A program made the translations under genes and the position numbers. A stretch of 53,730 nt of DNA from Thermoleophilia bacterium (lineage in GTDB: Bacteria > Actinomycetota > Thermoleophilia > Gaiellales > Gaiellaceae), in the NCBI GenBank assembly GCA_009694305.1, contig SHVL01000014.1, positions 1 through 53,730 on the forward strand. The letters run 5' to 3'. Shown here in pieces: positions 9,442 to 53,192 of the stretch (position 1 is its first letter; every line of letters starts with the position of its first letter). The notes below the pieces were generated by a model. It was not told the DNA's origin, searched no databases, and saw nothing but the letters and a program-made list of their open reading frames with translations.

Positions 9442-10499
9442 TCGTCGCTTCGGTCACGCTTCGCGACTTCCGGTCGTACGCCCGGCTCGAGTTGGCCCTG
9501 GCGCCGGGCCTCGTTCTCGTGACGGGTGCGAACGGGTCGGGCAAGACGAACCTTCTTGAATCGCTGCATGTCGGGACACAGGGATTCTCGCCCCGGACGC
9601 GCTCCGACACACAGCTGATCCGTCAGGGCTCGACGGCCGCCCGGATCGAACTGAGCGGGACGCGCGGTCCGACACCCGTCTCGGTTGCGGTGGGACTCTC
9701 CGCCGACGAGCCGCGGCGTGCGCGTCTCGACGGCGCAGCACTTCGTTCGGCAGAGCAACTGCGCTCCGAGCTCGTGACACTGGTCTTCACACCGGACAGA
9801 CTCGCGATCGTCAAGGGTGGCCCTGCGGCACGGCGGGCCTACATCGACCGCACGCTTGCACGCCTGTACCCCGCTCGCGCCCACATTCCAATCGACTACG
9901 CGACGGCCGTAGGACAGCGAAACGCAGCACTGCGCCGGGTCTCGCTCGGACTTTCGCACCGCGATGTGCTGGCACCGTGGACGGCCCAGGTCGCCGACCT
10001 CGGGGCCATGCTGACGGCATCTCGCCGTGACGTGATCGAGTTGCTGCAGCCAGGTTTTGGCGAGAGGGCCGACGAGCTCGGCCTCGAGGACGCGTTGCTC
10101 GGCTACGCCGCCGAGCCACCGACGATCGCGGCTCTCGAGAAGCGCCTCGACCGCGACATCGAGAGAGGCATCACCGGTATCGGGCCCCACCTCGACGAGA
10201 TTGCGGTTCGCTCGAGTGAGCGCGACCTCCGGACATTTGGCTCGCAGGGTGAACAGCGCCTCGCCGTGCTCTCGTTGCTCCTCGCCGAGGCCGAGCTGAT
10301 TGCGTTGCGCCGCCGGGTGCCGCCACTCTTGCTTCTCGACGACGCCTTCTCGGAGCTCGACGAGAACCGCCGCCGTATTCTCAGCGAGCGGATCGGCGCG
10401 GTCGGCCAGACGATCGTCACTGCAACGGGCACCGAGGCGCTTCCCCTCGCACCGGCGCAGTTGCTTCGCGTCACTCCCGGCCGCGTCGAGATTTCCTGA
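9438..10499 (+). CDS. recF: DNA replication and repair protein RecF
   Basis: A 353-residue SMC-like ATPase that helps load RecA at gaps. Walker A GANGSGKT is at residues 30-37, and the ABC signature and Walker B (LLLLDDAFSELDENRR) are near the C-terminus. The conserved first strand and the LRDFRSYARLEL block lie upstream of the first ATG, GTG or TTG in frame (TTG at 9492). The only start-like codon that retains them is CTG at 9438, which forms a CTGA overlap with the dnaN stop. This start aligns exactly with Met 1 of E. coli RecF. Starting at the TTG would remove 18 conserved residues. The stop overlaps the next ATG (TGATG). Confidence 0.93.
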   Translation: MIVASVTLRDFRSYARLELALAPGLVLVTGANGSGKTNLLESLHVGTQGFSPRTRSDTQLIRQGSTAARIELSGTRGPTPVSVAVGLSADEPRRARLDGAALRSAEQLRSELVTLVFTPDRLAIVKGGPAARRAYIDRTLARLYPARAHIPIDYATAVGQRNAALRRVSLGLSHRDVLAPWTAQVADLGAMLTASRRDVIELLQPGFGERADELGLEDALLGYAAEPPTIAALEKRLDRDIERGITGIGPHLDEIAVRSSERDLRTFGSQGEQRLAVLSLLLAEAELIALRRRVPPLLLLDDAFSELDENRRRILSERIGAVGQTIVTATGTEALPLAPAQLLRVTPGRVEIS

Positions 10500-10963
10500 T
10501 GGAGCGACTCGAGGATTCGGTGCGGGGCGTGCTGCGTGGTGCGGGCGTGCCCGATGCCGGTGCTCTTGCCGACGTTGTTCGCGTCTGGCCCATCACCGTC
10601 GGTGACGCCATCTCACGCGCCGCCTGGCCCCAGCGCATCGCGCGCGACGGAACGCTTCTCGTGGCCGCGAGCTCCTCGACCTGGGCGTTCGAGCTAGGCC
10701 TCCTCGCCGACGAGATCCTTGCGAAGCTCACTGCGGCAGTGGGCGAAGGGGCTCCCACGGGAATCCGATTTGCTCCCGGGGCCGTTCCCTCACCGGCGGC
10801 ACCGGTTGCGGATGCGACACCGGTAGCCCGTCCCGTGGCCGACGACGCGACCCGCCTTCTTGCCGATGAGCTCACGCTCGCGATGACCGACGAGAAGCTG
10901 CGTGGGACGATCGCGCGAGCTGCCGCTGCGAGTCTGGCAAGAGCCGCCGCCGACCGTCATTTC

Positions 10964-10966
<3 letters not shown>
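10499..10966 (+). CDS. DciA-like protein (DUF721)
   Basis: A 155-residue protein whose first about 85 residues match the DUF721/DciA pattern (VWPITVGDAIS, then the hydrophobic strand GTLLVAASSSTWAFEL). DciA is the ancestral loader or operator of the replicative helicase DnaB in bacteria without DnaC. The C-terminal half is Ala/Pro-rich and looks disordered. The position between recF and gyrB is the usual one in actinobacteria. The ATG overlaps the recF stop by one base. Confidence 0.82.
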
Positions 10967-16010
<5,044 letters not shown>

Positions 16011-38631: not shown

Positions 38632-39408
38632 ATGAAGGGACTTGTCTGTGCGGGGGGAGAGGCGACGCGGCTCGGTGAGCTGACGCGCGTCACCAACAAG
38701 CATCTGCTGCCGCTTGGTAGTTGGCCGATGGTCTACTACCCGCTGCAACTCCTTCAGCTCGCGGGTATCCGCGAGGTGCTTGTCGTGACGGGGAAGGCCC
38801 ACGCCGGGCAGATGATCGACCTTCTCGGTGACGGACACCTCACGGTCAGAGGTGGCGAGACACCGCTGCTCGAGCTCGATCTCACCTACAGGGTGCAGAC
38901 GCAACCGGGTGGGATCGCCGAGGTGGTGGGGATGGCCGAGGACTTCGCGGGCGGCGAGCCGCTCGTCGTCGTTCTCGGCGACAACATCTTCGAGTATTCC
39001 CATGCGGCGGAGATCGCCTCCTGGGGCGCGGGTGCCGGAGGTGCGCAGGTCTTCGTGAAGGACGTCCCTGACCCCGAGAACTTCGGCGTCGTCGTTTACG
39101 ACGGCGAGGGAAACGTGGTGGACCTTGCCGAGAAGGCCGGCATCGTCGATCTCCGGTATCCCTCACCACCGACAAACGACGCGGTGGTAGGCCTCTACTG
39201 CTATCCCCCGGATGTCTTCTCCGTCATCGCGGGCCTCGCTCGCTCGAGTCGGGGCGAGCTCGAGATCACGGATGTCAACCGTGCCTACGCCGAGCGTGGA
39301 GAGCTGTCCGTCGTTCCGGTGCGCGGCTGGTGGGAAGACGCGGGCAAGCACTGGCAGCATCTCGCCGAGATCGGGAGCATGATCGACGAGACGGGTGTCA
39401 ACAAGTGA
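38632..39408 (+). CDS. rmlA: glucose-1-phosphate thymidylyltransferase RmlA
   Basis: A 258-residue nucleotidyltransferase making dTDP-glucose, the first step to dTDP-L-rhamnose. The signature at the N-terminus is GGEATRLGELTRVTNKHLLP, with Glu where many enzymes have Gly or Ser. VLGDNIFEYS carries the metal-binding Asp, and EKAG plus ITDVNRAY are typical. It is about 30 residues shorter than E. coli RmlA, lacking the C-terminal tail, as in several actinobacterial relatives. It overlaps rmlC (GTGA). Confidence 0.9.
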   Translation: MKGLVCAGGEATRLGELTRVTNKHLLPLGSWPMVYYPLQLLQLAGIREVLVVTGKAHAGQMIDLLGDGHLTVRGGETPLLELDLTYRVQTQPGGIAEVVGMAEDFAGGEPLVVVLGDNIFEYSHAAEIASWGAGAGGAQVFVKDVPDPENFGVVVYDGEGNVVDLAEKAGIVDLRYPSPPTNDAVVGLYCYPPDVFSVIAGLARSSRGELEITDVNRAYAERGELSVVPVRGWWEDAGKHWQHLAEIGSMIDETGVNK

Positions 39409-39875
39409 GCGTCGAGGGGATCGTGCGGATCCCGTTGCGGCGATTCGCCGACGAGCGCGGCTGGTTCTGTGAGCTGCGGCGCGAGAGCCTCTTGCCGAAG
39501 CCCACGGTGCAGACCAACGTCTCGACGTCCCGCAAGGGCGTCATCCGCGGCCTCCACTTCCACGAGCGTGGTCAGGATGACCTCTTTACCTGTCTGCAGG
39601 GAACGGCGCGGGTCGTCGTGCTCGACCGGAACACGGGAGCCACCTACACGGAGGACATCGGGGACGAGAACCCCGTTGCCCTCTATATTCCCGGGCGGCA
39701 TGCGCACGGCTTCGAGGCGATCACCGACCTGTTGTTCGTCTATCACGTAACGGAGGAGTACGATCCTGCCGACCCCGATGAGCACGGGATCGCGTGGGAC
39801 GACCCTCGCGTGAAGGACCTGTGGAGCACCACGAACCCGATTCTCTCCGCGCGAGACACCGCCGCCGCGTTCTGA
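39405..39875 (+). CDS. rmlC: dTDP-4-dehydrorhamnose 3,5-epimerase RmlC
   Basis: A 156-residue cupin. RGLHFHERGQDD contains the catalytic His; GRHAHGFEAITD and YHVTEEYDPADPDEHGIAWDD are the family's closing blocks. The start is GTG at 39405 overlapping the rmlA stop; a longer frame upstream is shadow. The third step of dTDP-rhamnose synthesis. The end overlaps the rmlD reading frame. Confidence 0.92.
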   Translation: MSVEGIVRIPLRRFADERGWFCELRRESLLPKPTVQTNVSTSRKGVIRGLHFHERGQDDLFTCLQGTARVVVLDRNTGATYTEDIGDENPVALYIPGRHAHGFEAITDLLFVYHVTEEYDPADPDEHGIAWDDPRVKDLWSTTNPILSARDTAAAF

Positions 39876-40666
39876 TCACGGGAGCCGGCGGCCAACTCGG
39901 CGTCGCGCTTTCCGGGGTCTTCGCAGCGGATGCTGTCAGTGCGCTGACGCGGGCGGACTGGGACGTGCGGTTTCCAGCCCCTGCTGCCCTCGCGGTGCCG
40001 GACATCGTCCTGCATTGCGCTGCCTGGACGGATGTGGACGGGGCCGAGGACGATCCGCAGGGTGCCGCCGAGGCGAATGTGGGTGGCACGGCTCATGTGG
40101 CCGAGCTCGGAGCACCGGTCGTCGTGTACTCCTCCGACTACGTATTCGACGGCCGCAAGGGCCGGCCGTACGTCGAATCCGACAGTCCGAGCCCGGTGTC
40201 CGCATACGGCCGCTCGAAGGTCCACGGTGAGGCGGCAGCGGGCGGCCAGGCCTGGATCGTGCGCAGCTCGTGGCTCTTCGGCCCGTCCGGGCACAACTTC
40301 CTTCGCACCATGCTCCGTCTCGGGGCCGAACGGGACGAGGTTGCCGTCGTGGATGATCAGCGGGGCTGCCCGACCTACGTCGGACACCTGGCAGCTGCGA
40401 CGCGCGAGCTCGTGGACGCCGCCATGCCGTTCGGCGTCTGGCATCTCGCGGCGTCGGGAGACTGCACCTGGGCCGACCTGGCAGAGGCGATCTTCGAGGA
40501 GTCCGGTCTGCATTGCCGGGTCAGACGCATCTCGACCGCGGAGTACGGAGCGAGGGCTCGGCGCCCACCGGCGGCGATCCTGCGCAGCGACAGGGGTGCG
40601 CCCGACCTTCCTCACTGGCGCGAGGGCCTCGCAGAGTGTCTCGCCGAGCTCGGCAAGGCGGGCTAA
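39821..40666 (+). CDS. rmlD: dTDP-4-dehydrorhamnose reductase RmlD
   Basis: A 281-residue SDR-fold reductase giving dTDP-L-rhamnose. The NADPH motif TGAGGQLG is near residue 18, YVFDG and SSDYVFDGRKG follow, and the catalytic YxxxK is AYGRSK. The start is uncertain. The GTG at 39821 (AAGGA just upstream) keeps the whole first strand RRVLIT and overlaps rmlC by 55 bases. A CTG at 39872 in a CTGA overlap would delete half of that strand. GTG at 39794 is a third option. The gene ends the rmlA-rmlC-rmlD operon. Confidence 0.88.
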   Translation: MEHHEPDSLRARHRRRVLITGAGGQLGVALSGVFAADAVSALTRADWDVRFPAPAALAVPDIVLHCAAWTDVDGAEDDPQGAAEANVGGTAHVAELGAPVVVYSSDYVFDGRKGRPYVESDSPSPVSAYGRSKVHGEAAAGGQAWIVRSSWLFGPSGHNFLRTMLRLGAERDEVAVVDDQRGCPTYVGHLAAATRELVDAAMPFGVWHLAASGDCTWADLAEAIFEESGLHCRVRRISTAEYGARARRPPAAILRSDRGAPDLPHWREGLAECLAELGKAG

Positions 40667-40693
40667 TGCCCGGTCCGGGTTGTGCGGTGCCGC

Positions 40694-41797
40694 CTACCTG
40701 ACGAGCTCGAGCTCGGCACAGGCGGCGAGAAGGCGTCGAGTGTCATGGGTCGGCGCTTCGAAGCGCCGAGCAGGCGGGAGGGGACGGACGAGGCGTGTGA
40801 CGGCCTCAACGGTGGCAATCGGAATCTTCTCGAGCCTGATCTGGTTCGCGAACGAGATCACGGTGTCACCGGTGAAGAGGAACGCGCCGACGCCGGTTTC
40901 GCCGGCGAGGTCTCTGGCCCAGGCGACGCCGGTCGCACCGGAGGAGGAAAACGATCGGCACGTTGCCCCCGAGAGCGCTGCCCGGATCGTCTGCTGATCG
41001 AACCGTTCGCTCGAGAACGAGATCGTCTCGCGGCAGGAGCCGAGGTCCGAGGCCCGACCGCAACTTGTGTACGAGAGCACGGCCGTCTTGCCCGTCAGGC
41101 CGGCGCCCGTCAGTTGCCCGCCCTCGAACCAGCGGCCTACCCAGGCGAGTGGGAGCCCCGGCATCCGGTGGAGAGAGGCGAATCGTTCCGGAAGGGGGAT
41201 GAACGGATGTGCTCGGGTGACGCAGTTCGCGAGAGCCTCGACCCCGAGCGTGGGCGGCTCGAACGCGGCTGTACCACGGGTCGGCCGTAGCCGCAGGAGA
41301 GCCCGGCCGACCTGACCAGGTCGGCCGAGGACGGCGATTGCGAGGACACCGCTGTAGAGAACAGCCCCGCTTTGACCGACCACGACAGGAGCACTACGCA
41401 CCGTTGTCCGGACGCAGGACCCGTCGAGCAGCCGGGGGATATCGTCGAGGGAGAGCGCATATTTTCGGCGCCGCACCTGCATCCAGAGGGGATACCCGCA
41501 CCTCGTGCTCGTGAAGGGATCGAGCCTGTGGCCGAAGCGCTGACACGCTCCGTACCCGAGGTCGTCTACCCGGTCGCCGCTGGCTGTTTCGGCGTGGGTT
41601 ACCGGCAGGCCGTCGAACGTTCTGCCGAGCCACCACGCTTTCTCGGTCTGTTCGACCTGTGCCATCTGCTCCGAGAGAGAAGGAGCGAACACCTCCAGCT
41701 TGACCAGGGTGTAGGCGGTGGTTGCGACGAGCGCCAGGACGAGGACGGCGACCGCCGAGATAATCGTGCTTCGCCGGGGTGGGTGCGGTCGTCGCAT
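40694..41797 (-). CDS. hypothetical membrane-anchored extracytoplasmic protein
   Basis: A 367-residue protein not recognised. A basic N-terminus (RRPHPPRR) and one hydrophobic segment at about 12-35 predict a signal anchor; the rest should lie outside the membrane. About nine Cys residues in the outer part (for example GYGACQRFG, TRCGYP, GSCVRTT, TSCGRASDLGSC) suggest several disulfides. Two similar halves may exist, each with a Cys pair and an aromatic core, but this is tentative. It is inserted in reverse between rmlD and rmlB, converging with rmlD. Confidence 0.7.
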   Translation of the reverse strand: MRRPHPPRRSTIISAVAVLVLALVATTAYTLVKLEVFAPSLSEQMAQVEQTEKAWWLGRTFDGLPVTHAETASGDRVDDLGYGACQRFGHRLDPFTSTRCGYPLWMQVRRRKYALSLDDIPRLLDGSCVRTTVRSAPVVVGQSGAVLYSGVLAIAVLGRPGQVGRALLRLRPTRGTAAFEPPTLGVEALANCVTRAHPFIPLPERFASLHRMPGLPLAWVGRWFEGGQLTGAGLTGKTAVLSYTSCGRASDLGSCRETISFSSERFDQQTIRAALSGATCRSFSSSGATGVAWARDLAGETGVGAFLFTGDTVISFANQIRLEKIPIATVEAVTRLVRPLPPARRFEAPTHDTRRLLAACAELELVR

Positions 41798-41855
41798 CCG
41801 GTGATCGTGCCGGAAACCGCGTGGGCGCTGCCGACACTGTGGCTACCCTGTAGCG

Positions 41856-42845
41856 ATGCGCGTGCTCGTCACCGGTGGCGCCGGGTTCATCGGCTCCCAT
41901 TTCGTGCGGTTGCTCGCGGGTGGTGGCGCCAGCGTCGTTGTGCTCGACAAGCTCACCTACGCGGGGAATCTCGCAAATCTCGAGGGGATCGACCACGTGT
42001 TCGTCCACGGTGACATCGCCGACCCGGCAGCGGTCGCAACTGCGGCAGCGGGCTGCGACGCAATCGTGAACTTTGCGGCGGAGACGCACGTTGACCGCTC
42101 GATCCTCGGCCCGGCGGAGTTCGTGCACACCGACGTGCTCGGAACGATGTGCCTGCTCGAGGCCGCCCGCGAGAGCGGCGCCCGGTACGTCCAGGTGTCC
42201 ACCGACGAGGTCTACGGCGACCTCGAGGCGGGCGGGCGGGCACGCGAGGGAGATCCTCTGCGACCATCGAGCCCGTACAGCGCTGCAAAGGCCGGCGGCG
42301 ATCTGCAGGTGCTCGCCTACGTGCGCACCTACGGAGTGCGTGCCTCCATCACGCGTGGAGCAAATACGTACGGCCCCAATCAGTACCCCGAGAAGCTCGT
42401 GCCTCTCTTTGTCACGAATGCCTTCGAGGGCGAGCCGTTGCCGGTCTACGGGGACGGCAAGCAGGTGCGCGAATGGCTCCACGCCGAGGATCACTGTGCA
42501 GGTGTCGAACGCGTCCTCCACGAGGGCGCTCCCGGCGAGATCTACAACATCGGGGGTGAGGATCACGAGAACATCGAGGTCACGCGTCGGATCCTGGAAC
42601 TGACGGGAGCCGACCCGGCGCTTGTCCGTCACGTCGAGGATCGAGCCGGGCACGATCGCCGCTACGCTGTGGACGACTCGAAGCTCCGGGCGCTCGGATG
42701 GACTCCGGAGCACTCGTTCGGCGAAGGTGGTCTTTCCGCCACCGTCGAGTGGTATCACGAGAACCGCGCCTGGTGGGAGCCGATCAAATCGGGCGTGTAC
42801 CGTGCCTACTACGAAGAGCAATACGCAAACAGACTCAAGGCCTGA
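41856..42845 (+). CDS. rmlB: dTDP-glucose 4,6-dehydratase RmlB
   Basis: A 329-residue extended SDR. The NAD motif GGAGFIGSH is at the N-terminus, AETHVDRSI follows, and the catalytic STDEVYGD and PYSAAKAGGD (YxxxK) motifs are intact. ANTYGPNQYPEKLVPLF is diagnostic for RmlB. It completes the dTDP-rhamnose set but is separated from rmlACD by the reverse gene. The start ATG lies 58 bases from the divergent hypothetical gene, so it has its own promoter region. Confidence 0.94.
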   Translation: MRVLVTGGAGFIGSHFVRLLAGGGASVVVLDKLTYAGNLANLEGIDHVFVHGDIADPAAVATAAAGCDAIVNFAAETHVDRSILGPAEFVHTDVLGTMCLLEAARESGARYVQVSTDEVYGDLEAGGRAREGDPLRPSSPYSAAKAGGDLQVLAYVRTYGVRASITRGANTYGPNQYPEKLVPLFVTNAFEGEPLPVYGDGKQVREWLHAEDHCAGVERVLHEGAPGEIYNIGGEDHENIEVTRRILELTGADPALVRHVEDRAGHDRRYAVDDSKLRALGWTPEHSFGEGGLSATVEWYHENRAWWEPIKSGVYRAYYEEQYANRLKA

Positions 42846-42880
42846 GCCGTCTTACCGAGAATACCTCTCGTAGGCCTTTT

Positions 42881-44281
42881 ATGATGCGTCGCGTACTCGT
42901 TCCCTTTCTGTCACTCGCCCTTGCGGGGACTGCAGCCGCGGCTGCATCTACCCGGCCCTCGGAGCCGACTTTTGTCGCGTCTCTCGCCGCGTTGTCGTTA
43001 CCGGTCTACGTGCTCACGGGCGGCGGCTACGGGCACGGCGTCGGCCTCAACCAGTACGGAGCCTTCGGCCAGGCCAGTGCCGGCAGAGGCTATCGGGACA
43101 TCCTGGCGTTCTACTATCCGGGTACCGAGTTGTCGAAGGCCCCGACCGGGAAGGTCAGGGTTCTGATTGGTGACGGTCGCGTGGCGGTGAAGATCTCTTC
43201 GCCCGTGCCGTTCTCTGTCCGGGACGGCTCGGGTACGGTTGCGGAGATCGGCCCGGGAGAGATCGTCATCACGCCAGCCCTCCGGATCGTCGTCGAGGGA
43301 AAGCCGGTGCGACTTCCGGGGCCGCTCGCGTTTGTCGCCGGTAAAGGCGCTCCCCTCCGGATGGACGGCAAGGACTATCGCGGCGAGATCCGCCTCTCGG
43401 TTGTCGGCGCCAAGCTGCAGGCGATCAACGTCCTCGGTCTCGACGCGTACCTCGTCGGCGTCGTGCCCGGAGAGATGCCGAAGGAATGGCCTGCGGCTGC
43501 GCTGCAGGCGCAGGCCGTGGCCGCACGCTCCTATGCGCTTGCGAGCATCGTCAAGGACAGGCCCTTCGATCTCTACTCCGACACGCGCAGCCAGGTCTAC
43601 TACGGCGTCGCTGCAGAGTCGCCGTCCACGACGGCGGCCGTGAAGGCGACGAGGGGCGAGATCCTCAGCTACGGCGGCAAGGTGGCGACGGCGTTCTACT
43701 ATTCGTCTTCCGGAGGGCGTACGGCCTCGAGCAAGGACGTGTTCGGAGCCGTGTTGCCGTACCTGCAGGCTCGCGACGACCCGTGGGACACCCTGTCGCC
43801 CTATCATCGTTGGACGCCGCGCACCTTCACCCCGGTGACGTTGGGACAGGCCCTCCGGCTGTCGGGCCCGGTCGTGGATGTCCAGGTGGTACCTACCGAA
43901 TCTGGCCGGCCTGAGTCCGTTACGTTCGTCAAGAAGAGCGGCGCGCGCGTGCTGCTACGGGCCGCCGACGTGCGAGCCCGGCTCGTCCTCCGTTCGACGG
44001 CGTTCAGGATCGGCGTGCTCCGCATCGCCCGTCCCTCCGCGTCCGTCGCTCCGGGGACACCCGTCGTCATCTCCGGTATCGCCCGTGACGTGACCGCTCC
44101 CGTGCTCGAGAAGCTCGGCGTCAACGGCACCTGGCTCGCGTCCGTGAACCTGAAGCCTGAGCCCGGCGGCACGTTCTCCGCCACGGTGACGCCGAAGTTG
44201 ACGGCGACCTACCGACTCGTGGCCGAGGGCGTTGTCGGCCCGGCGCTCGCAGTCACGGTCACCGCCAAGGCCACGCAGTGA
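42881..44281 (+). CDS. SpoIID/LytB-domain secreted protein
   Basis: A 466-residue exported protein. A signal peptide spans about 1-23 (VPFLSLALAGTAAAAA). The SpoIID core includes GHGVGLNQYGAFGQA near 45-60 and GVVPGEMPKEWPAAALQAQAVAARSYAL near 205 (shown here by its key blocks PGEMP and QAVAARSYA), YYSSSGGRT, and a C-terminal Ig-like domain. SpoIID is a lytic transglycosylase in sporulation; non-spore-forming actinobacteria keep homologues for wall remodelling. ATG at 42881 or 42884 starts it. It overlaps the subtilisin-like gene by four bases. Confidence 0.87.
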   Translation: MMRRVLVPFLSLALAGTAAAAASTRPSEPTFVASLAALSLPVYVLTGGGYGHGVGLNQYGAFGQASAGRGYRDILAFYYPGTELSKAPTGKVRVLIGDGRVAVKISSPVPFSVRDGSGTVAEIGPGEIVITPALRIVVEGKPVRLPGPLAFVAGKGAPLRMDGKDYRGEIRLSVVGAKLQAINVLGLDAYLVGVVPGEMPKEWPAAALQAQAVAARSYALASIVKDRPFDLYSDTRSQVYYGVAAESPSTTAAVKATRGEILSYGGKVATAFYYSSSGGRTASSKDVFGAVLPYLQARDDPWDTLSPYHRWTPRTFTPVTLGQALRLSGPVVDVQVVPTESGRPESVTFVKKSGARVLLRAADVRARLVLRSTAFRIGVLRIARPSASVAPGTPVVISGIARDVTAPVLEKLGVNGTWLASVNLKPEPGGTFSATVTPKLTATYRLVAEGVVGPALAVTVTAKATQ

Positions 44282-45924
44282 GCGCGAGAGCAGCGGCTGC
44301 TGTCGCCATCGTGACGGCCGTTTTGACATGCGGCCTTGTCGGGGCACCTCGTGCAGCCGCTGCCCGCTTTGCCGTGGGAGTTGCTCCGCACGAGAGCAGC
44401 ATGGCGCTAGCGAAGCGCCTGTCGGCTCGCGGTGCAACCCGTATCGTCGATCTCCGGCCGATCCGCGCGTTGACCGTTTCGGCACCCGATGCCGACGCGC
44501 TTCGCGGCGTTCCCGGAGCGCTCTACGTGGAGCGGCTCCGTAGCCGCCGGCCGTCGTATGTTCCGAATGATCCCTTCTTCGCACGTCAGTGGTATGCGAC
44601 CCAGAACCGCGCATTCGACACCTGGCTCGAGCCACCACCTTTCGCTTCCGTGCGCGTCGCCGTGATCGACTCGGGCATAGACGGAAGCCACCCCGAGTTC
44701 CGGGGGCGGATTGCTGCCTCGAAGAGCTTCGTCGAGGGCCCTGCGACGGTCGATACCCAGGGCCACGGAACGTTCGTCGCCGGGCTTATCGCGGCCGGCA
44801 CGAATGACGGGCTCGGGATTGCGGGCCTCGCACCACCTGCGGAGCTTCTGATCGCGAAGGTCGTCGGGCCGCAGCGGTCGATTCCGGTCGAGGCCGAGGT
44901 GAAGGCGATTCGCTGGGCGGTAGCAAACGGAGCGCGCATCATCAACATGAGCCTCGGCGGCCCTCGCGACCCGCTCAAACCGAGCAGGGATACGTACTCG
45001 AAGCTCGAGGCAGATGCTGTCGCCTACGCGGTCTCGAAGGGCGTGCTCGTTGTCGCCGCGGTCGGCAACTCGGATCAGTCACCTGCTCAGCCGTGGCCGT
45101 ACGCGAGCTGGCCTGCCGCGCTGCCACACGTCGTGGGGGTCAGCGCCCTCGGTCGGTCGGGCGGCTCGCCGGGGTTCTCGAACCGTGACGCCCAGTTCAA
45201 CGACATTGCGGCCCCCGGTGAGGACCTGCTCTCGACGTTCCCCAGGCAGCTCACATCCGTGTTCCTCGACTGCGCCGAGCAGGGATACTCGAGCTGCGGC
45301 CCGCAGGAGTTTCGCGCAGCCGAGGGAACGAGCTTCGCTGCCCCACAGGTGACCGCTGCAGCGGCCGTGCTGCTCGCGACCTCACCCGGGTTGAAGCCCG
45401 ATCAGGTGACGGCACTCCTCGTTGGCAGTGCCGTCGATTCGACCCCTGCCAACGGCTGTAGTCTGTGCCACCCGGGGAGAGATCGGTACACGGGCTTCGG
45501 GCGCCTCGATCAGGCCGCCGCGCTCGGGCTTCTTGCCACGGGATTTCCACCGGCCGACAGATACGAGCCGAACGACGGTGGCGGCACGAGCGCCTACACG
45601 CTCTACGGGGGCCGCCGCCGGGTCGAAGCGACGCTCGACTACTGGAACGACCGGGATGACGTCTATCGCGTCTATCTCCGCGCCGGTGAACGCCTCGTGG
45701 TGACAGCAGATGCCGGAGCCTTCGTGCGTCCGGCACTCGTAGTGTGGCGCCCCGGGACGTTGACGGTAGACACGGGATCCCCGGCGGTGCGGCGTCTGGC
45801 TGTGCGCGGAGCCGGTATCGCGCTCGGGTATCGCGCCCGTACTTCTGGCTGGTACCTCCTTGATGTGCGTGCGACGAAATCCGTCTCGGGCCGGTATCGC
45901 CTCACCGTGTCCAGGGCGCCCTAG
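44278..45924 (+). CDS. secreted subtilisin-like serine protease (S8)
   Basis: A 548-residue exported peptidase. Signal peptide at about 1-28, propeptide-like region to about 95, and the S8 domain with Asp 131 (VIDSGID), His 163 (GHGTFVAG), oxyanion Asn 264 and Ser 352 (GTSFAAPQV). The C-terminal about 110 residues (YEPNDGGG, DDVYRVYLRAGERL) form a pre-peptidase C-terminal (PPC) domain that is usually removed on secretion. Cys pairs in the catalytic part (DCAEQGYSSCG, NGCSLCHPG) suggest disulfides. The GTG start overlaps SpoIID. Confidence 0.9.
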   Translation: MSARAAAAVAIVTAVLTCGLVGAPRAAAARFAVGVAPHESSMALAKRLSARGATRIVDLRPIRALTVSAPDADALRGVPGALYVERLRSRRPSYVPNDPFFARQWYATQNRAFDTWLEPPPFASVRVAVIDSGIDGSHPEFRGRIAASKSFVEGPATVDTQGHGTFVAGLIAAGTNDGLGIAGLAPPAELLIAKVVGPQRSIPVEAEVKAIRWAVANGARIINMSLGGPRDPLKPSRDTYSKLEADAVAYAVSKGVLVVAAVGNSDQSPAQPWPYASWPAALPHVVGVSALGRSGGSPGFSNRDAQFNDIAAPGEDLLSTFPRQLTSVFLDCAEQGYSSCGPQEFRAAEGTSFAAPQVTAAAAVLLATSPGLKPDQVTALLVGSAVDSTPANGCSLCHPGRDRYTGFGRLDQAAALGLLATGFPPADRYEPNDGGGTSAYTLYGGRRRVEATLDYWNDRDDVYRVYLRAGERLVVTADAGAFVRPALVVWRPGTLTVDTGSPAVRRLAVRGAGIALGYRARTSGWYLLDVRATKSVSGRYRLTVSRAP

Positions 45925-45954: not shown

Positions 45955-46602
45955 CTAGACGTTGAGCAACTCGTCCTCGGGGACGTCCCGGAGGATCCGG
46001 GCGGGGCAACCGACGACGACGACCCGTGGTGGGACATCCCTGGTGACGACCGCGCCCGCGCCGACGAAGGCGTCTTCCCCGATCTCGATCTGCGGGCAGA
46101 TGACGGCGCCACCACCGATTCGCGCACCCCGGCGAATCGTGGGCCCCTTGACGTTACCGAATCGTTTCTCGGTGCGGCCCATCCAGTTGTCGTTCGTGGT
46201 GACGACACGCGGCGCGATGAAGACGTGTTCCTCGATGGTCGAGTAGGCGGTGATATAGGCGTCCGCCTGGATCCTCGTCATCGCACCGATCGTCGTGTCG
46301 TTCTCGACGAGCGAGCCTCTGCCGACGACGACGTCGTCACCGATCGTGACGCGTTCGCGGACGCAGGACTGGTCGCCGAGAATCACGCGCTCGCCGACCC
46401 GCGTCCCCGCGAAGACGATCGCTCCGGTCGAGACGACCGTGCCGGCGCCGATCACGGTGGGCGGCAGCACTTCGCGCTTCGCCGTCGAGCGGGGCGAGAG
46501 CGTCGGCTCCTTGCCGACGACGGCGTTCTCGAGCACTTTGACTCCGGCTCCGAGAACGGTGCCGGGGTAGACGATCGCGCTCGGGTGGATCTCCGTGCTC
46601 AT
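45955..46602 (-). CDS. hexapeptide-repeat acyltransferase (WbpD/WlbB-like)
   Basis: A 215-residue left-handed beta-helix acyltransferase with many [LIV]GxxxxV hexapeptides. ITAYSTIEEHVFIAPRVVTTND and GARIGGGAVICPQIEIGEDAFVGAGAVV-type blocks (given here by family) match the sugar 3-N-acetyltransferase group. With the neighbouring oxidoreductase and UDP-HexNAc dehydrogenase it fits the step that acetylates UDP-GlcNAc(3NH2)A. It is last in the minus-strand operon, overlapping the oxidoreductase by four bases. Another sugar or amino-acid substrate is possible. Confidence 0.8.
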   Translation of the reverse strand: MSTEIHPSAIVYPGTVLGAGVKVLENAVVGKEPTLSPRSTAKREVLPPTVIGAGTVVSTGAIVFAGTRVGERVILGDQSCVRERVTIGDDVVVGRGSLVENDTTIGAMTRIQADAYITAYSTIEEHVFIAPRVVTTNDNWMGRTEKRFGNVKGPTIRRGARIGGGAVICPQIEIGEDAFVGAGAVVTRDVPPRVVVVGCPARILRDVPEDELLNV

Positions 46603-47573
46603 GCGGGCGTGCCGGTGCGGAGCGATGTCGTCAGCCGGTCGAGCGTGCGTACGACAGCAAGTCCGTCGGTCGCCTCACGATGGTCACCGGGCCCTTCGGC
46701 GACGAGCTTCAGGAAGTGTTGCAGCTCGAGCTTCAGGGGCTCGTCCCCTGCAATCTTCGGGCTGAAAATATCGCCCGTGCGGGTGCGCCACTCCCCGTGG
46801 GTCGGCTCCCAGGGGCCCTTCTCGTAGACCGTCACCTTGCGCTCGAGCTCCATGTCGTCGAAGACGACCATCTTCTCCCGCCCGACCACCGTCATCTTCC
46901 GCATCTTGTGTGGGTCGAGCCACGAGAGGTGCATATGCGCGACCTTCCCGGACGGAAAGCGGAGGAAGCAGAAGACGACGTCCTCGATGCCTGGCTGGAC
47001 GAAGTCCTGCCCGTATGCGACAACCTCAGAGGGCTCCTCTTCGAGCAGCCACAGGATCACGGAGAGGTCGTGGACACCGAGCGACCAGAGGGCATTCTCG
47101 TTCGAGCGGATCACGCCGAGGTTCTGCCGGTTGCCGTAGACACAGGCGACGTCGCCGAGCCCCCCGGAGTCAACGAGCTCTTTCACCTTGCGTAATCCCG
47201 GGTGGTAGAGGAGCAGGTGGCCCGGCATCAGGACGAGGCCGTTCGCGCGCGCAAGGCCGACGAGCTCCTCCATCTCCTCGCCGCGCATCGCCGGCGGCTT
47301 CTCGACGAAGACGTGCTTGCCCGCTTCGAGCGCCTGCTTTGCAAGGGCGTAGTGCGACGGCACGGGGGTCGCGATCGACACGGCCTCGACGGTGTCGTCG
47401 GCAAGCGCCCCGGTAAGGGAATCGCTGATCGTGGCCTGCGGGTAGCGGGTCGCGTACTCCGCCTGGCGGGCAGCATCCGTGTCGATGACCCAGGCGAGGT
47501 CCGACAGATCTCCTACGACCCGCGCGACGTTCTTACCCCAGTCACCGACGCCCGCGTGGGCGACGCGGATCAC
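46599..47573 (-). CDS. Gfo/Idh/MocA-family oxidoreductase (WbpB/WlbA-like)
   Basis: A 324-residue NAD-dependent oxidoreductase. HAGVGDWGKNVAR forms the Rossmann motif, VEKPPAM is the family's conserved Lys-Pro motif, and GHLLLYHPGLRKVKELV is typical of WbpB/WlbA. These enzymes oxidise the C3 hydroxyl of UDP-GlcNAcA to the ketone. GTG is the start, overlapping the dehydrogenase stop (GTGA). The partner aminotransferase (WbpE) is not in the window. Confidence 0.82.
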   Translation of the reverse strand: MIRVAHAGVGDWGKNVARVVGDLSDLAWVIDTDAARQAEYATRYPQATISDSLTGALADDTVEAVSIATPVPSHYALAKQALEAGKHVFVEKPPAMRGEEMEELVGLARANGLVLMPGHLLLYHPGLRKVKELVDSGGLGDVACVYGNRQNLGVIRSNENALWSLGVHDLSVILWLLEEEPSEVVAYGQDFVQPGIEDVVFCFLRFPSGKVAHMHLSWLDPHKMRKMTVVGREKMVVFDDMELERKVTVYEKGPWEPTHGEWRTRTGDIFSPKIAGDEPLKLELQHFLKLVAEGPGDHREATDGLAVVRTLDRLTTSLRTGTPA

Positions 47574-48841
47574 AGCTTCCAGACCTTTTCGTGGGTGATC
47601 CCGCGCCGCCCGACGGCGTTCCTCAGGTCAACGATCAGATGCGCGTCGGTGACGAGTTGCGTGTAGTCGATGTCCGTGTGTGCGGTTGCGATCACGACCG
47701 CGTCGTAGGCTCCGGGCTCGAGTGGTTGCGAGGCGAGCTCCATGCCGTGCTCGACGAATGAGGGGACGTGCGGGTCGTGGTAGGAGACATCTGCACCGGC
47801 GTTCAGCAGCAGCTCGATCAGTTTCACGGCGGGCGACTCACGCATGTCGGAGATATCAGCCTTGTACGCCACCCCGAGCACGAGAATCCGCGAGCCCTTG
47901 AGTGACTTGCCCGAGCCGTGGTTCAGTGCCTGTGAGACGCGCGAACGGCAGTAGTAGGGCATGTTCTGGTTGACCTCACCTGCAAGCTCGATGAAGCGCG
48001 TCGAAAAATCGTACTCGCGCGCCTTCCAGGTGAGGTAGAACGGGTCGATCGGGATGCAGTGACCGCCGAGGCCGGGCCCCGGATCGAAGCGCATGAAGCC
48101 GAATGGCTTCGTCGCGGCGGCATCGACGACCTCCCAGATGTCGATGCCCATCCGGTCGCACAGCTGCGCCAGCTCGTTGACGAGAGCGATGTTGACCGAG
48201 CGAAAGATGTTTTCGAGCAGCTTCGTCAGCTCTGCTGCCTCGGGTGTCGAGACCCGGTGGATGGTGTCGATCGCGCTGCCGTACAACGCAGCCGCGGCGT
48301 TGGTCGAGGCCTCGTTGATGCCACCGACGACCTTTGGCACGGTCTTCGTCGTGTGATCGGTCCTGCCGGGGTCGATGCGCTCGGGTGAGAAGGCGAGGTA
48401 GAAGTCCACACCGGCGACGAGGCCCGAGCCACGCTCCAGGATGGGCAGCAGTTCGTCGCGTGTGGTGCCGGGGTATGTCGTCGATTCGAGCACGACGAGG
48501 TGGCCTGTGCGTAGTCGCATCGATATCTCGGCGGCGGCGGCGCAGACGATCGAGAGGTCGGGCTCCCGTTGTTTCGAGAGGGGGGTTGGCAGCGCGATCA
48601 CGATCGCGTCGGCTTCGCGTAGCTCGTCGTAGTCGGTCGTGGCGTGCAGGAGGCGCCCGTCTATGATCTGCTTCAGTTTCTCGCTCGGAACGTCCTCGAT
48701 GTAGCTCTCGCCACGGTTGAGCTGATCAACTCTTTCGGGGCTGACGTCCACGAGCAGGACGGAGCGGCCTGCGTCTGCAAAGACCTGGGCGAGCGGCACG
48801 CCGACGTAGCCGGCTCCGATGATTGCAACGTCGCGACGCAC
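47570..48841 (-). CDS. wbpA: UDP-N-acetyl-D-glucosamine 6-dehydrogenase (WbpA-type)
   Basis: A 423-residue UDP-sugar dehydrogenase oxidising C6 of a UDP-HexNAc to the uronate. The NAD motif IIGAGYVGVPLA opens the chain; the catalytic Cys is in GGHCIPIDPFYLTWKA. That ending is characteristic of UDP-GlcNAc dehydrogenases; ManNAc dehydrogenase (WecC) normally has GHCIAVDPWF. GVAYKADISDMRESPA closes the C-terminal domain. The GTG at 48841 has AGGA about ten bases upstream; the longer frame is Pro/Arg-rich shadow. It follows the Mur-ligase-like gene by 50 bases. Confidence 0.86.
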   Translation of the reverse strand: MRRDVAIIGAGYVGVPLAQVFADAGRSVLLVDVSPERVDQLNRGESYIEDVPSEKLKQIIDGRLLHATTDYDELREADAIVIALPTPLSKQREPDLSIVCAAAAEISMRLRTGHLVVLESTTYPGTTRDELLPILERGSGLVAGVDFYLAFSPERIDPGRTDHTTKTVPKVVGGINEASTNAAAALYGSAIDTIHRVSTPEAAELTKLLENIFRSVNIALVNELAQLCDRMGIDIWEVVDAAATKPFGFMRFDPGPGLGGHCIPIDPFYLTWKAREYDFSTRFIELAGEVNQNMPYYCRSRVSQALNHGSGKSLKGSRILVLGVAYKADISDMRESPAVKLIELLLNAGADVSYHDPHVPSFVEHGMELASQPLEPGAYDAVVIATAHTDIDYTQLVTDAHLIVDLRNAVGRRGITHEKVWKL

Positions 48842-48891: not shown

Positions 48892-50097
48892 TCAGCCGGG
48901 CGTGTGCAGGAGGTTGCACGCGCTGCACTGGCCTTCGCGGTGGCAGCCTTCGCGCCAGCAGCGGACGTCCATCGTGCGTGACAGCAGGATCCGCAGTAGG
49001 TGATCGGCCCGGTTCGAGCCCTTGAGCACGACGAGGTCACCGTCGCGCAGGGCGGTTCGGTAGTGCTCTGCCGCCTCGCGTACGGTGGCGAACATCAGCA
49101 GAGCGCCGCCGGATTCGGCTACGAGCTTCCTGACACGGTTGGCCTGTGACCCGACGAACGCTACCTCGTCGGCGACCGCGAGCCCGCTACGGGCGAACCT
49201 GGTGTACACCCTCGAGCTGCTGCCGGCGTAATCCGAGAGCGAGCCGACAATGAGGACTTTGCGGGTCGCCCGCGCATCTGCTATGAACTCGAGCACGGGG
49301 TCGAGCGACCACGCCGGCGCCTTGCAGTCGTCCCGGATGAATGTCACGCCACCCTGGACGACGGCACTCATACGGGCGGGTACGGGCTCGAAGTGCGCCA
49401 CCGACTCGAGTGCGTCGTCCAGCGGGTGCCCCAGGGCGTGCGCCACTCCGAGCGCTGCGAGCACGCTCGTAGCGGATTGCTTCCCGTGCAGCCGTGTCCG
49501 TACCGGACGAGAGCTGCCTCCGACCTGCAGCATGAACTCGAGGTGATCAGGCCACGAAGAGCGCACCTCTGAGACCCGAAGCGTGGCTTGCGGCGACTCG
49601 CCGAAGGAAATCACACGCCCTCGAAACCCCTCCGTCATGGTCATCGCATACGCATCGTCGGCGTTCAGAACGGCGATCCCGTCGTCGGGTAGGGCTTCGA
49701 TGAGCGCTCGCTTCTCGGCCGTGACGGCCTCGAGGGTGCGGAACTCTGTGAAGTGGTCACGACCGATGCACGTGACGACGCCGATCCGGGGTTGCAGGAG
49801 TTGCGCGATCTGGTTGACGCTTCCGGGCCGCCAGGCGGCCACCTCCGCCACGCAGACCGCATCGCCCGTTCGCGTCTGCAGAATCGCTCGTCCCACCTGA
49901 GAGATTCGATTCGAATTCGCCGGCGTCGATGTCGTTCCCGGACCAAGGATGGCGACGATCAGCTCCTTTGTCGTCGTCTTGCCCGCACTCCCTGTCACAC
50001 CGACGAAGGTCGTATTCCGGAGGCGTCGGCGCTGCGCCGTACCGGCGACGAGCCCGAGTCGTAGAAGGGTGGCCCGGACAGCGGCCTCACCCGGCAG
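48892..50097 (-). CDS. Mur ligase family protein with C-terminal Cys-rich tail
   Basis: An ATP-dependent Mur-ligase-like protein of about 400 residues. TTFVGVTGSAGKTTTKEL contains the P-loop, and IGVVTCIGRDH, LNADDAYA, HGKQSATSVLAALGVA and IRDDCKAPAWSLDPVLEF match the MurF-like central and C-terminal domains. The last residues carry four Cys in C-x4-C-x5-C-x2-C (CWREGC, CSAC), a possible metal site absent from normal Mur ligases. The conserved strand before the P-loop lies upstream of the only normal start (GTG at 49998). No ATG, GTG or TTG exists before the upstream stop; CTG at 50097 is assumed. It probably joins an amino acid to a sugar uronate or wall precursor. Confidence 0.72.
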   Translation of the reverse strand: MPGEAAVRATLLRLGLVAGTAQRRRLRNTTFVGVTGSAGKTTTKELIVAILGPGTTSTPANSNRISQVGRAILQTRTGDAVCVAEVAAWRPGSVNQIAQLLQPRIGVVTCIGRDHFTEFRTLEAVTAEKRALIEALPDDGIAVLNADDAYAMTMTEGFRGRVISFGESPQATLRVSEVRSSWPDHLEFMLQVGGSSRPVRTRLHGKQSATSVLAALGVAHALGHPLDDALESVAHFEPVPARMSAVVQGGVTFIRDDCKAPAWSLDPVLEFIADARATRKVLIVGSLSDYAGSSSRVYTRFARSGLAVADEVAFVGSQANRVRKLVAESGGALLMFATVREAAEHYRTALRDGDLVVLKGSNRADHLLRILLSRTMDVRCWREGCHREGQCSACNLLHTPG

Positions 50098-50155
50098 AAA
50101 CCGGCGCCCTGTGAGCGTGAGCTGACGCTGTGAACCGATGAGTTATCATAGGGCA

Positions 50156-52003
50156 GTGTGCGGGATTGCCGGGATCTGGGAGCGGTCGGGCCGCCCCGTC
50201 AACCGTGCAGCTCTGGAACGGATGGCTGCGATTCTCCAGCACCGTGGCCCCGACGGCTCCGGCATCCACCTGGACGGCGAACTGGGCCTTGCCAACCGGC
50301 GTCTTGCCATTGTCGATCCATCGCCAGCCGGCGAGCAGCCGATGGGTCTCGAGAGCCGGGGGCTGTGGCTCACCTACAACGGTGAGATTCACAACTACGT
50401 CGAGCTCCGGAAGGAACTGGAGTCGAGCGGTGCGCGGTTCCGGACGGACACCGACACAGAGGTCGTCCTCGAGGCCTATGCAGCATGGGGGATGGGGTGT
50501 TTCGAGCGCTTCAACGGCATGTGGGCGCTTGGCCTGTGGGATGGGCGTGAGCGGCAACTCGTTCTTTCCCGTGACCGGTTCGGGATCAAGCCCCTGTGTT
50601 ATTCGCTGCGCGGCGGCCGGATCTGTTTTGCCTCCGAACCGAAGGCCATCCTTACCGCCTTTCCGCAGGAGCGGGAGCCCGACAACGCGGAGATCGGCCG
50701 TTTCCTCGCCGGTCATTACCCCGATACGGGCGAGGCCACCTTCTTCGCCGGGATCAGCAATCTGCCGGCCGCGCACTGCCTTGTCGTCACTCCTACCTCG
50801 ATCGGCGAGATCGGCTACTGGGGCTTTCAGCCGGGCGTTGAGGCACCGATGCGCGATGCGGAGGAGCAGTTCCGCGAGCTTCTTCGCGAGTCCGTCCGGA
50901 TCCGGATGCGCAGTGATGTCCCCGTCGGGGCGTGTCTCTCGGGAGGCCTAGACTCCAGCGCGATCGCGGCACTCGTCGAGGTGCCGCCGGGACGCCCGAT
51001 GCAGTGCTTCTCGCTGCGGTATGACGGTTCACGCGACGACGAGAGCCGGTATGCCGCAGCAGCGGCCCGGGATGACCGCTTCTCGATCACCTGGGTGCGG
51101 CCTGCTGGCGATGACCTGCTGGACACGATCGGTCGTATCGTCTGGCATCACGATGCGCCGACGCCGCTCCGCGGCCGGCTTGCCCAGTGGGCTGTGATGC
51201 AGGAGGCGGGAAAGCACGTCAAGGTCGTGCTCGACGGCCAGGGTGGAGACGAGTTGCTCGCCGGGTATTCGCGCTACGTCTTTCCGTACGTGGTTGACCG
51301 ACTTCGTCGGCCGACCCGGGCCGGGGGAATCGTCCGGGAGCTTTCAGACCTTGCTCGAATCGAGACCCGCAGCCGACTCTGGTTTCTCTCCCGCACGCCT
51401 TTGCAGCCGGCGCAGCGGGCGCTCGGCCTACCGCCGTGGGTGTGCGGGAGGGCCGAAGGGCGCGCGTTTCGCCGGAGCGTGGATGTCTCGCCCGGCGAGC
51501 GGGAGCGTCCGTATGCGAGCTCGGTCAACAACATGCTCTGGCACGAATTGCGCCACGAGGGCCTGCCCGAGGTTCTGCACGCCGAGGATGCGCTCAGCAT
51601 GGCGTTCTCGATCGAGTCGCGGACGCCGTTCCTCGACCACCGTCTCGTCGAGCTGTGTTTCTCGCTGCCGTATACCGAAAAGATCGGCGGCGGCTGGACA
51701 AAGAGCCTGCTGCGGCGTTCTCTCGCAGGCGACGTGCCGCCCGAGATCCTTGCCCGTCGTCGCAAGCTCGGGTTCTCGTCTCCGGCCGGCACGTGGCTTC
51801 GTCGCGATGACACGTGGCGAGGGGTGCGGGATCTCCTGCTCGACCCACGCTGCCTCGGGCGCGGCATCCTCGACGGCCGCCGGCTCGAGCGCGCGCTCAG
51901 GGTCTACGAGCGAGCTCCGGAGGTGGTTCGCGTGCACCGCACGGTCCGTATCTGGGCCTGGATCACGCTCGAACTGTGGTTCCGTCAGTTCATTGACGCC
52001 TGA
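50156..52003 (+). CDS. asnB: asparagine synthase-like glutamine amidotransferase (AsnB family)
   Basis: A 615-residue two-domain enzyme. The N-terminal Ntn glutaminase needs Cys as residue 2: GTG at 50156 followed by TGC gives MCGIAGIWE, so this start is firm although an ATG at 50138 is in frame. RGPDGSG and YNGEIHNY bind glutamine. The synthetase domain has SGGLDSSAIAAL near 262 and DGQGGDELLAGY. It either makes Asn or, as with AsnB homologues in O-antigen clusters, amidates a sugar uronate. Its place beside WbpA-like genes favours the second. It is divergent from the Mur-ligase-like gene. Confidence 0.88.
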   Translation: MCGIAGIWERSGRPVNRAALERMAAILQHRGPDGSGIHLDGELGLANRRLAIVDPSPAGEQPMGLESRGLWLTYNGEIHNYVELRKELESSGARFRTDTDTEVVLEAYAAWGMGCFERFNGMWALGLWDGRERQLVLSRDRFGIKPLCYSLRGGRICFASEPKAILTAFPQEREPDNAEIGRFLAGHYPDTGEATFFAGISNLPAAHCLVVTPTSIGEIGYWGFQPGVEAPMRDAEEQFRELLRESVRIRMRSDVPVGACLSGGLDSSAIAALVEVPPGRPMQCFSLRYDGSRDDESRYAAAAARDDRFSITWVRPAGDDLLDTIGRIVWHHDAPTPLRGRLAQWAVMQEAGKHVKVVLDGQGGDELLAGYSRYVFPYVVDRLRRPTRAGGIVRELSDLARIETRSRLWFLSRTPLQPAQRALGLPPWVCGRAEGRAFRRSVDVSPGERERPYASSVNNMLWHELRHEGLPEVLHAEDALSMAFSIESRTPFLDHRLVELCFSLPYTEKIGGGWTKSLLRRSLAGDVPPEILARRRKLGFSSPAGTWLRRDDTWRGVRDLLLDPRCLGRGILDGRRLERALRVYERAPEVVRVHRTVRIWAWITLELWFRQFIDA

Positions 52004-52009
52004 GCAGCG

Positions 52010-53065
52010 TCAGGGACGGCGTCCCGGCAGCGCCTCGCCGAGCACGGCCGCAATCCGTTCTGCGGCGCGCCCGTCCCCGTAGAGCTCCGGCCGGCCCGGC
52101 GGCATCCGGGCATCACCGATTGCCGTTGCGATGCGGTCGGGGTCGTCGTCAACCAGAACGTTCGCCCCGGCTTCGACCGTGGCCACCCATTCGGTAGACG
52201 GGCGCATCGTCACGCAGGGAACGCCGTACCAGTAGGCCTCCTTCTGGAGGCCACCCGAGTCGGTCGCTATCACTGCCGCCTGCGAGGCCAGAGCCGCGAA
52301 GTCCAGGTAGCCGAGGGGGTCGATTACGGTGATCGACGGGGGCACTTCGATCCCCTGCGCTGCCAGCACGTTTCGCGTTCTCGGGTGCGCCGGCAGCACG
52401 ACCCGGTGGGCCGAGCGGCCGAGGCCCGCCACGATCCGTCGCAGCCGCTCCGGCTGCACGTTGGCCTCACGGTGCACCGTCGCGAGGACGAACGCCCCGG
52501 GTTCCACGCCGAGTGCGGCAAGGATGCCGGAGCGCTCGCGGGCCAGAGGCGCAAACCGGGCCACCGCATCGGCCATCACGTCGCCGACGACGTGGATCTC
52601 GCCTGTCACTTCCTCGCCACGGAGGATTGCGGCCGAGCGTTCGTCGGGTGCGAACAGGAACGAGGAGAGGCGGTCTACCTCGATTCTGTTGCGCTCCTCG
52701 GGCATCGTCAGGTCGCCGCTGCGTAACCCTGCCTCGACGTGCGCGACGGGGTACCCGGCCCCGGCACCGGCTCCCGCGAGTGTCGAGTTCGTGTCACCGT
52801 AGACGAGGACGGTGTCTGGCCGTTGCTGCGTCACCGTTGCGCGTAGAGCCTGTTCGATCGTCGCTACCTCGGATGTGCGGAGGTCGAGAGCGATGGCGGG
52901 AGCGCGAAGCGAGAGCTCGTCGAAGAAGACCGCCGACAGGGAGGCATCCCAGTGCTGACCGGTGTGCACGACGATCTCCTCGATCCCTTCATGGCGAAGG
53001 GCCGCAGAGAGCGGCGCCGACTTGATGAACTGTGGTCGGTTGCCGACGACCGTGAGCACTTTCAC
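52010..53065 (-). CDS. UDP-N-acetylglucosamine 2-epimerase family (WecB/WbpI-like)
   Basis: A 351-residue GT-B-fold non-hydrolysing epimerase. VVGNRPQFIK opens the chain; the catalytic set is in YGDTNST, HVEAGLRSGD, PEERNRIEVDRLS, TVHREAN and DSGGLQKEA. It inverts C2 of a UDP-GlcNAc derivative: UDP-GlcNAc if WecB, or UDP-GlcNAc(3NAc)A if WbpI. The nearby WbpA/B/D-like genes make the WbpI role attractive. The GTG at 53065 is in register with the family; the upstream extension is not conserved. It converges with asnB at a six-base gap. Confidence 0.87.
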   Translation of the reverse strand: MKVLTVVGNRPQFIKSAPLSAALRHEGIEEIVVHTGQHWDASLSAVFFDELSLRAPAIALDLRTSEVATIEQALRATVTQQRPDTVLVYGDTNSTLAGAGAGAGYPVAHVEAGLRSGDLTMPEERNRIEVDRLSSFLFAPDERSAAILRGEEVTGEIHVVGDVMADAVARFAPLARERSGILAALGVEPGAFVLATVHREANVQPERLRRIVAGLGRSAHRVVLPAHPRTRNVLAAQGIEVPPSITVIDPLGYLDFAALASQAAVIATDSGGLQKEAYWYGVPCVTMRPSTEWVATVEAGANVLVDDDPDRIATAIGDARMPPGRPELYGDGRAAERIAAVLGEALPGRRP

Positions 53066-53192
53066 GAGCGTCGCCTCGACCGCGGGGAGCGGCTGTGCAT
53101 CGTGTGAGCGTAGCCGCCTCGATCCCGCGGGCGCGATGCTCACGCCCGCTGCCCCGCGCACGTGGGTGTCGCCCTGGTCGGCATCGCGCGGC

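Follow-up and report, generated by a model that had tools for sequence, protein, structure and literature searches.

We describe what appears, from sequence, to be a coherent small family of Mur-related amide-bond-forming enzymes, apparently undescribed, which we name here MurL-Cys4 and define by membership of one clade together with a C-terminal C-x4-C-x5-C-x2-C tail. Its representative studied here is encoded in a 53,730-nucleotide stretch of Thermoleophilia DNA (hereafter the window), which is the entire contig C37 of the 2.47-Mb, 97% complete draft genome G000, and its predicted features support an ATP-dependent amide ligase of Mur type that stands apart from MurC-F. The conserved unit, as far as gene neighborhoods indicate, is the ligase with an AsnB-like amidotransferase, optionally joined by a peptidyl-tRNA hydrolase (Pth), and the uronate genes that follow the ligase in the window are not defining. 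We put at roughly 0.5 the probability that ligase and amidotransferase together perform ATP-dependent amide ligation and amidation of a carboxylated building block, often for surface glycans. If true, this would be a new Mur ligase branch outside peptidoglycan synthesis, allied with an amidotransferase and, unexpectedly, with Pth.

The ligase core and its cysteine tail

Pfam found two domains and no others in the window ligase: the ATP-binding middle domain Mur_ligase_M (PF08245; 49441..49998, minus strand; E 8e-29, 101.5 bits), with the P-loop TGSAGKTTT, and Mur_ligase_C (PF02875; 49015..49374, minus; E 3e-9, 38.2 bits), both above cut-off and together placing the protein in the Mur ligase superfamily. 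The murF profile TIGR01143 gave 181.1 bits (cut-off 288.6) and the MurT profile NF045635 18.2 bits (cut-off 800), so that the protein falls into neither group by score. An AlphaFold model (52 sequences; pLDDT 90.8, pTM 0.90) matched MurF best among PDB structures (4qf5, TM 0.78), with MurC and MurE also matched, and has just one helix before the P-loop in place of the N-terminal UDP-sugar-binding domain. Ahead of the P-loop there are at most 49 residues in the longest frame, versus ~110 or more in most MurF-like matches; hence the N-terminal UDP-MurNAc-binding domain of MurF is absent.

The open reading frame at 48892..49998 (minus), as first delimited, is real, and its C-terminal end reads ...MDVRCWREGCHREGQCSACNLLHTPG, but the start at 49998 makes the ligase too short, because GTG 49998 falls within the P-loop strand and residues farther upstream still align. 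The frame stays open up to 50142, and the upstream residues GRRFLPGEAAVR...RRRLRNTTFVG match a relative in locus L025 (54% identity); Pfam, open frame, and alignment thus give a gene at 48892..50142 (end approximate; minus) for a protein of ~400-416 amino acids. No ATG, GTG, or TTG was found between 49998 and 50142, only a CTG at 50097; start at this codon, another rare start, or a base error are all conceivable.

MurL-Cys4 members have lost the UDP-sugar domain from the N-terminus and retain the core of an ATP-dependent ligase, with conserved P-loop, Mg-site E, H, the Lys of the E-K motif, N-x-D-D, the R of G-R-M, and K-G. The Y-N-A-N of MurF has become W-K-A-P or similar, so the substrate probably differs from that of MurF. 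The core is basic, with a median pI of 9.15 (n=13) versus 5.7 in MurF-like controls (n=138), figures that are uncorrected for kinship.

By direct reading, the tail lies at 48916..48960 (minus) as VRC-WREG-C-HREGQ-C-SA-C, which bears out the preliminary description of a four-cysteine ending foreign to MurC-F. The pattern occurred in 0 of 20,000 shuffles of the window protein and is therefore not due to chance, while none of 166 other Mur ligases carries three or more Cys within its last 45 residues. Identical spacing was seen in 15 of the 17 recovered clade members, from the window genome's family and from alpha-, beta-, and gammaproteobacteria; the tail is missing from L025 and from a Devosia protein (L031), and is thus not indispensable. 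Structure prediction, proposed earlier for the tail, gave a good overall ligase fold, but the tail itself was modeled at low confidence (pLDDT about 50) and was unresolved in both structure models. The compact Cys4 tail is probably a metal site. A tail that is not conserved, or a ligase always found with cell-wall mur genes, had been named in advance as evidence against the idea, and neither was seen, the spacing recurring as above and no member lying in a mur cluster.

Distribution of the family

The family was sought in >1,600 genomes, in bacterial and archaeal genome contigs by a scan, and in proteobacterial genomes by profile search, and the resulting counts (at least 17 members at at least 16 loci among the matches listed) are lower bounds. 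The window protein falls in the clade and bears the tail. Among the matches listed, further members are those of Rhodoferax (L028) and Undibacterium (L029) and of loci L165, L166, L167 (a tandem pair), L168, L179, L180, and L188; a single Burkholderiaceae genome (G401) holds two copies (L030 and L169), and a plasmid of Gemmobacter aquarius HYN0069 carries another (L189; WP_108437331.1), an example of the members in cultured bacteria that make the family testable. Within the window's own class and phylum, relatives were found in one further genome only (G015, of the same family as the window genome); it encodes a tail-less relative, L025, and a tail-bearing one, L026, whose sequence contains a run of N. 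Members, L025, and the tail-less L031 form one clade with a support of 1.0 in a tree of the sequences then available, which left out L026, L179, L180, L188, and L189. A clear member was present in 5 of 369 sampled genomes of Rhodoferax's class, seed counted, so the family is sparse.

Other matches in the window's phylum were rejected as members, being MurF-like, tail-less, and extended at the N-terminus ahead of the P-loop; so was L027, a Mur ligase that shares its contig with a D-Ala-D-Ala-ligase-like gene. At L167 (9024-11698, minus), a tandem pair of Cys-tailed ligases, each ~36% identical to the Rhodoferax protein, has neither Pth nor AsnB in its vicinity. No description of the family turned up in the openly licensed literature on Mur ligases with peptidyl-tRNA hydrolase, asparagine synthase, or XrtA, which is weak evidence of novelty.

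Genomic partners

The AsnB-like glutamine-dependent amidotransferase gene of the window (50156..52003, plus; PF00733 E 2e-73, PF13537 E 4e-41) is divergent from the ligase gene, as the preliminary description had it, and probably starts at GTG 50156 (MCGIAGIW) instead of 50138. It scores 418 bits with TIGR01536, 373 bits with the XrtA/PEP-CTERM amidotransferase model TIGR03108 (cut-off 816.9, not reached), and 315 bits with TIGR03104, well below cut-off; TIGR03108 is passed by the AsnB partners of L170/L030 (1021 bits) and L180 (1112 bits). An AsnB-like gene directly adjoins the ligase in 7 of the 16 recovered loci, in surroundings that are otherwise unrelated: divergently in the window, L025, and L169, directly upstream on the same strand in L030, L166, and L188, and directly downstream in L028, there without the N-terminal Cys. 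L180 has one within the same cluster, 5 kb off, and in about half of the loci no AsnB stands alongside the ligase. The L028 gene (9853-11637, plus) begins MTILAG rather than MCGI and matches GATase only partially, so its product is probably without glutaminase activity.

Since AsnB-like genes are frequent in polysaccharide loci, adjacency in exosortase loci (L030 and L180) is partly expected; the pairing is seen more cleanly in L188 and L025. The L188 pair adjoins genes read as recA/alaS/lysC-like, and nothing else there is shared. The AsnB orthologue beside the L025 ligase is 67% identical to that of the window. Of 101 relatives of the window genome, the two that hold the ligase, G000 and G015, are also the only ones with the AsnB orthologue (67-70% identity), the next best matches reaching 40-43%.

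Pth enters as a fused domain. It follows the tail in L028, L029, L030, L165, L169, and L179, and at L168 the order is reversed, a single 637-residue frame (9152-11065, minus) running Pth-Mur ligase-Cys4 tail; over these fusions PF01195 matches at E about 1e-37 to 2e-43. A small tree places the N-terminal Pth of L168 apart from the C-terminal ones, which suggests two independent fusions. Residues aligned with N10, H20, N68, and D93 of E. coli Pth are kept in all seven fused domains, which thus combine the PF01195 match with N10, H20, and D93; N114 is replaced by R or K in each of them. Their pI is 6.2-7.4 in five of the seven, versus 8-9 for housekeeping Pth. Eight of the 15 tail-bearing members, the window protein included, have no fused Pth. 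Directly behind the Mur-Cys4-Pth fusion of L030, in an exosortase-A locus, lies a gene for a second, distinct Mur ligase of 504 residues (9826-11340, plus).

The minus-strand order of ligase, WbpA-, WbpB-, and WbpD-like genes in the window was described correctly. The WbpA-like nucleotide-sugar 6-dehydrogenase (47570..48841, minus; TIGR03026 428 bits) starts at GTG 48841, 50 bp past the ligase stop, and the WbpB-like Gfo/Idh/MocA oxidoreductase (46599..47573, minus; PF01408; NF040723 147 bits, below cut-off) and WbpD-like hexapeptide acetyltransferase (45955..46602, minus; PF00132 E 1e-28; TIGR03570 104 bits, below cut-off) genes each overlap the preceding gene by 4 bp. On the far side of AsnB is a WecB/WbpI-like UDP-GlcNAc 2-epimerase gene (52010..53161, minus; PF02350 E 5e-85; TIGR00236 237 bits, above cut-off). 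WbpE, required for UDP-GlcNAc(3NAc)A, is absent from the operon; the genome has 13 DegT-type aminotransferase matches at other places, of which seven are strong. At 13 relative loci, tblastn found no match to the window WbpB or WbpD and a single WbpA-like dehydrogenase (L169, 27% identity), and the 5.2-kb L025 contig holds the AsnB-ligase pair, no Wbp gene, and an MFS gene after the ligase on the opposite strand. The Wbp genes are thus probably neighbors rather than constant partners, and we rejected the uronate operon as the conserved context. Of the system first proposed, amide ligation plus amidation of a uronate, the pairing of an amide ligase with AsnB stood up to the co-occurrence search, whereas the definition by WbpA/B/D and the uronate link as a general rule did not.

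Elsewhere in the window, two consecutive exported-looking genes occupy 42698-45924 (plus); the second encodes a subtilase that matches the type VII secretion mycosin model TIGR03921 below its threshold (184 of 279 bits). An apparent dTDP-rhamnose-type set (RmlA/C/D/B-like, by reading only) spans 38632-42845 (plus) and is interrupted by a minus-strand frame at 40694-41797.

Many relatives lie in surface-polysaccharide loci, in keeping with the setting first proposed; the exosortase-A loci among them, like the Pth fusions in either order, had escaped the preliminary description. L030/L170, L179, L028, and L180 are exosortase-A (XrtA/PEP-CTERM) exopolysaccharide loci, a call based on an above-cut-off match to TIGR03109, TIGR03098, TIGR03099, TIGR03100, TIGR03694, or TIGR03108; L166 (pyruvyl transferase), L169 (glycosyltransferase and UDP-sugar dehydrogenase), and the Gemmobacter locus L189 (glycosyltransferases and pyruvyl transferase) are further glycan loci. 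Exosortase-A and other polysaccharide contexts together account for about half of the loci, and L029, L165, L167, L168, and L188 are outside recognizable ones. FemAB-like proteins (PF13480) are encoded near the ligase in L028, L179, and L180. No match to exosortase (PF09721) was found in the window genome. A CapK-like reading of two L166 genes was dropped, as Pfam gave them no match. At L180, a gene for a sugar-transfer-associated ATP-grasp protein (PF14397; 10811-11929, plus) is head-to-head with the Cys-tailed ligase gene, ~10 bp apart.

Proposed function and comparison with known systems

Most likely, MurL-Cys4 would turn a carboxylate into an acyl phosphate and couple it to an amine, probably that of an amino acid, while AsnB would amidate a carboxylate, either on the substrate or on the product; together they would yield a building block both amidated and aminoacylated, which in many hosts would go into a surface polysaccharide. 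The sequences show the fold, the missing N-domain, the intact ligase motifs, the conserved tail, the AsnB pairing, the Pth fusions, and the polysaccharide settings; the substrates, the order of these steps, and metal binding we infer. A chemical precedent is known from Porphyromonas gingivalis, where the linking sugar 2-N-seryl,3-N-acetylglucuronamide depends on a Wbp pathway, the AsnB-like WbpS, and VimA/E, and the authors of that work noted related genes in PEP-CTERM loci and a still-sought exosortase acceptor, speculating that the exosortase-attached compound is an amino-acid-modified sugar (PMC7468200). The exosortase-A link found here bears on the question of which compound exosortases attach to PEP-CTERM proteins.

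Other explanations deserve weighing against ligation plus AsnB amidation. Tentatively, the pair may modify UDP-HexNAcA from the adjacent WbpA/B/D, so that its glycan in the window organism would contain uronic acids carrying aminoacyl or amide groups; the preferred reading can include this one as a special case. The close gene order with its 50-bp gap and 4-bp overlaps, the 2-epimerase gene past AsnB, and the P. gingivalis precedent of a Wbp pathway and AsnB-like WbpS yielding an amidated, serine-bearing uronate (PMC7468200) all agree with it, but WbpB and WbpD adjoin none of the 13 relative loci, the only WbpA-like match is remote, the L025 ligase is followed by an opposite-strand MFS gene, and P. 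gingivalis manages without a Mur ligase, FemAB-like VimA being proposed for the amino acid step. Very improbable is an ordinary divergent peptidoglycan MurF paralogue with a degenerate, functionless tail: the top curated models are murF and the top structures MurF, yet the score is 181 bits against 288.6, the UDP-MurNAc domain and YNAN are gone, members are absent from mur clusters, the window genome and G399/G400 have MurF-like matches besides, and the tail is strictly conserved.

An aminoacyl-tRNA as amine donor is speculative; it would account for the Pth fusion, the known substrate of Pth being N-blocked aminoacyl-tRNA. In such a scheme, which we regard as unlikely, MurL-Cys4 would join a carboxylate to the free amine of aminoacyl-tRNA, the tRNA protecting the carboxyl of the amino acid, Pth (fused or free) would release the N-blocked amino acid, and the tail would help to hold the tRNA. 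Fusion in both domain orders with the N-terminal Pth apart in the small tree, the four residues kept in all seven fused domains, the basic core, and the nearby FemAB-like proteins favor it, whereas the basic charge may instead serve lipid phosphates or polyanionic glycans, the fused Pth are mostly less basic than housekeeping Pth, which argues against tight tRNA binding, 8 of 15 tail-bearing members lack the fusion, and we know of no tRNA-using Mur ligase. An extended version is more of a long shot: the acyl group that MurL-Cys4 transfers to the aminoacyl-tRNA amine would come from an amino acid or a carboxylated sugar, Pth would set the product free, and amidation by AsnB would give, in some hosts, the amino-sugar compound that exosortase-type systems may attach to proteins. 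Also improbable is a small-molecule route with no glycan link, in which the pair would produce a soluble, amidated compound resembling a dipeptide, by analogy with N-acetylglutaminylglutamine amide. The L188 pair beside recA/alaS/lysC-like genes, the L025 pair without glycan genes, the window AsnB's match to TIGR03104, and the fact that the N-domain-less Mur ligases FolC, CapB, and CphA act on amino acids and peptides would fit such a compound; the exosortase-A or other polysaccharide setting of about half of the loci and an AsnB score well under the TIGR03104 cut-off speak against it.

Set beside known systems, MurL-Cys4 and its partners combine familiar parts differently. N-acetylglutaminylglutamine amide synthesis likewise pairs an AsnB-type amidotransferase with an ATP-dependent amide ligase, but that ligase belongs to another family than Mur. 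Bacterial Pth (PF01195) shares its catalytic residues with the fused domain of seven relatives, whereas theirs is joined to a Mur ligase and the window protein has none. The WbpS/XrtA amidotransferases (TIGR03108) are alike in being AsnB-type and in occurring in Wbp or exosortase-A loci, and in P. gingivalis the WbpS-type enzyme produces a uronamide (PMC7468200), but the described Wbp/Vim linking-sugar pathway is without a Mur ligase and the window AsnB, at 373 of 817 bits, does not pass TIGR03108. MurF has in common with MurL-Cys4 the ATP-binding middle domain, the C-terminal domain, and the P-loop, Lys, and Mg-site residues; in contrast, MurL-Cys4 has no UDP-sugar domain and no YNAN, and has a basic core, a Cys4 tail, and AsnB and Pth partners. 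The isoglutaminyl lipid II synthase MurT/GatD combines a UDP-domain-less Mur ligase that has a four-Cys site with a glutamine amidotransferase partner, all three features recurring here; yet the four Cys are C-terminal in MurL-Cys4 and lie in an internal insertion in MurT, the MurT score is 18 of 800 bits, and the partner, unlike GatD, is AsnB-type (PF00733 plus GATase_7) with an ATP domain of its own.
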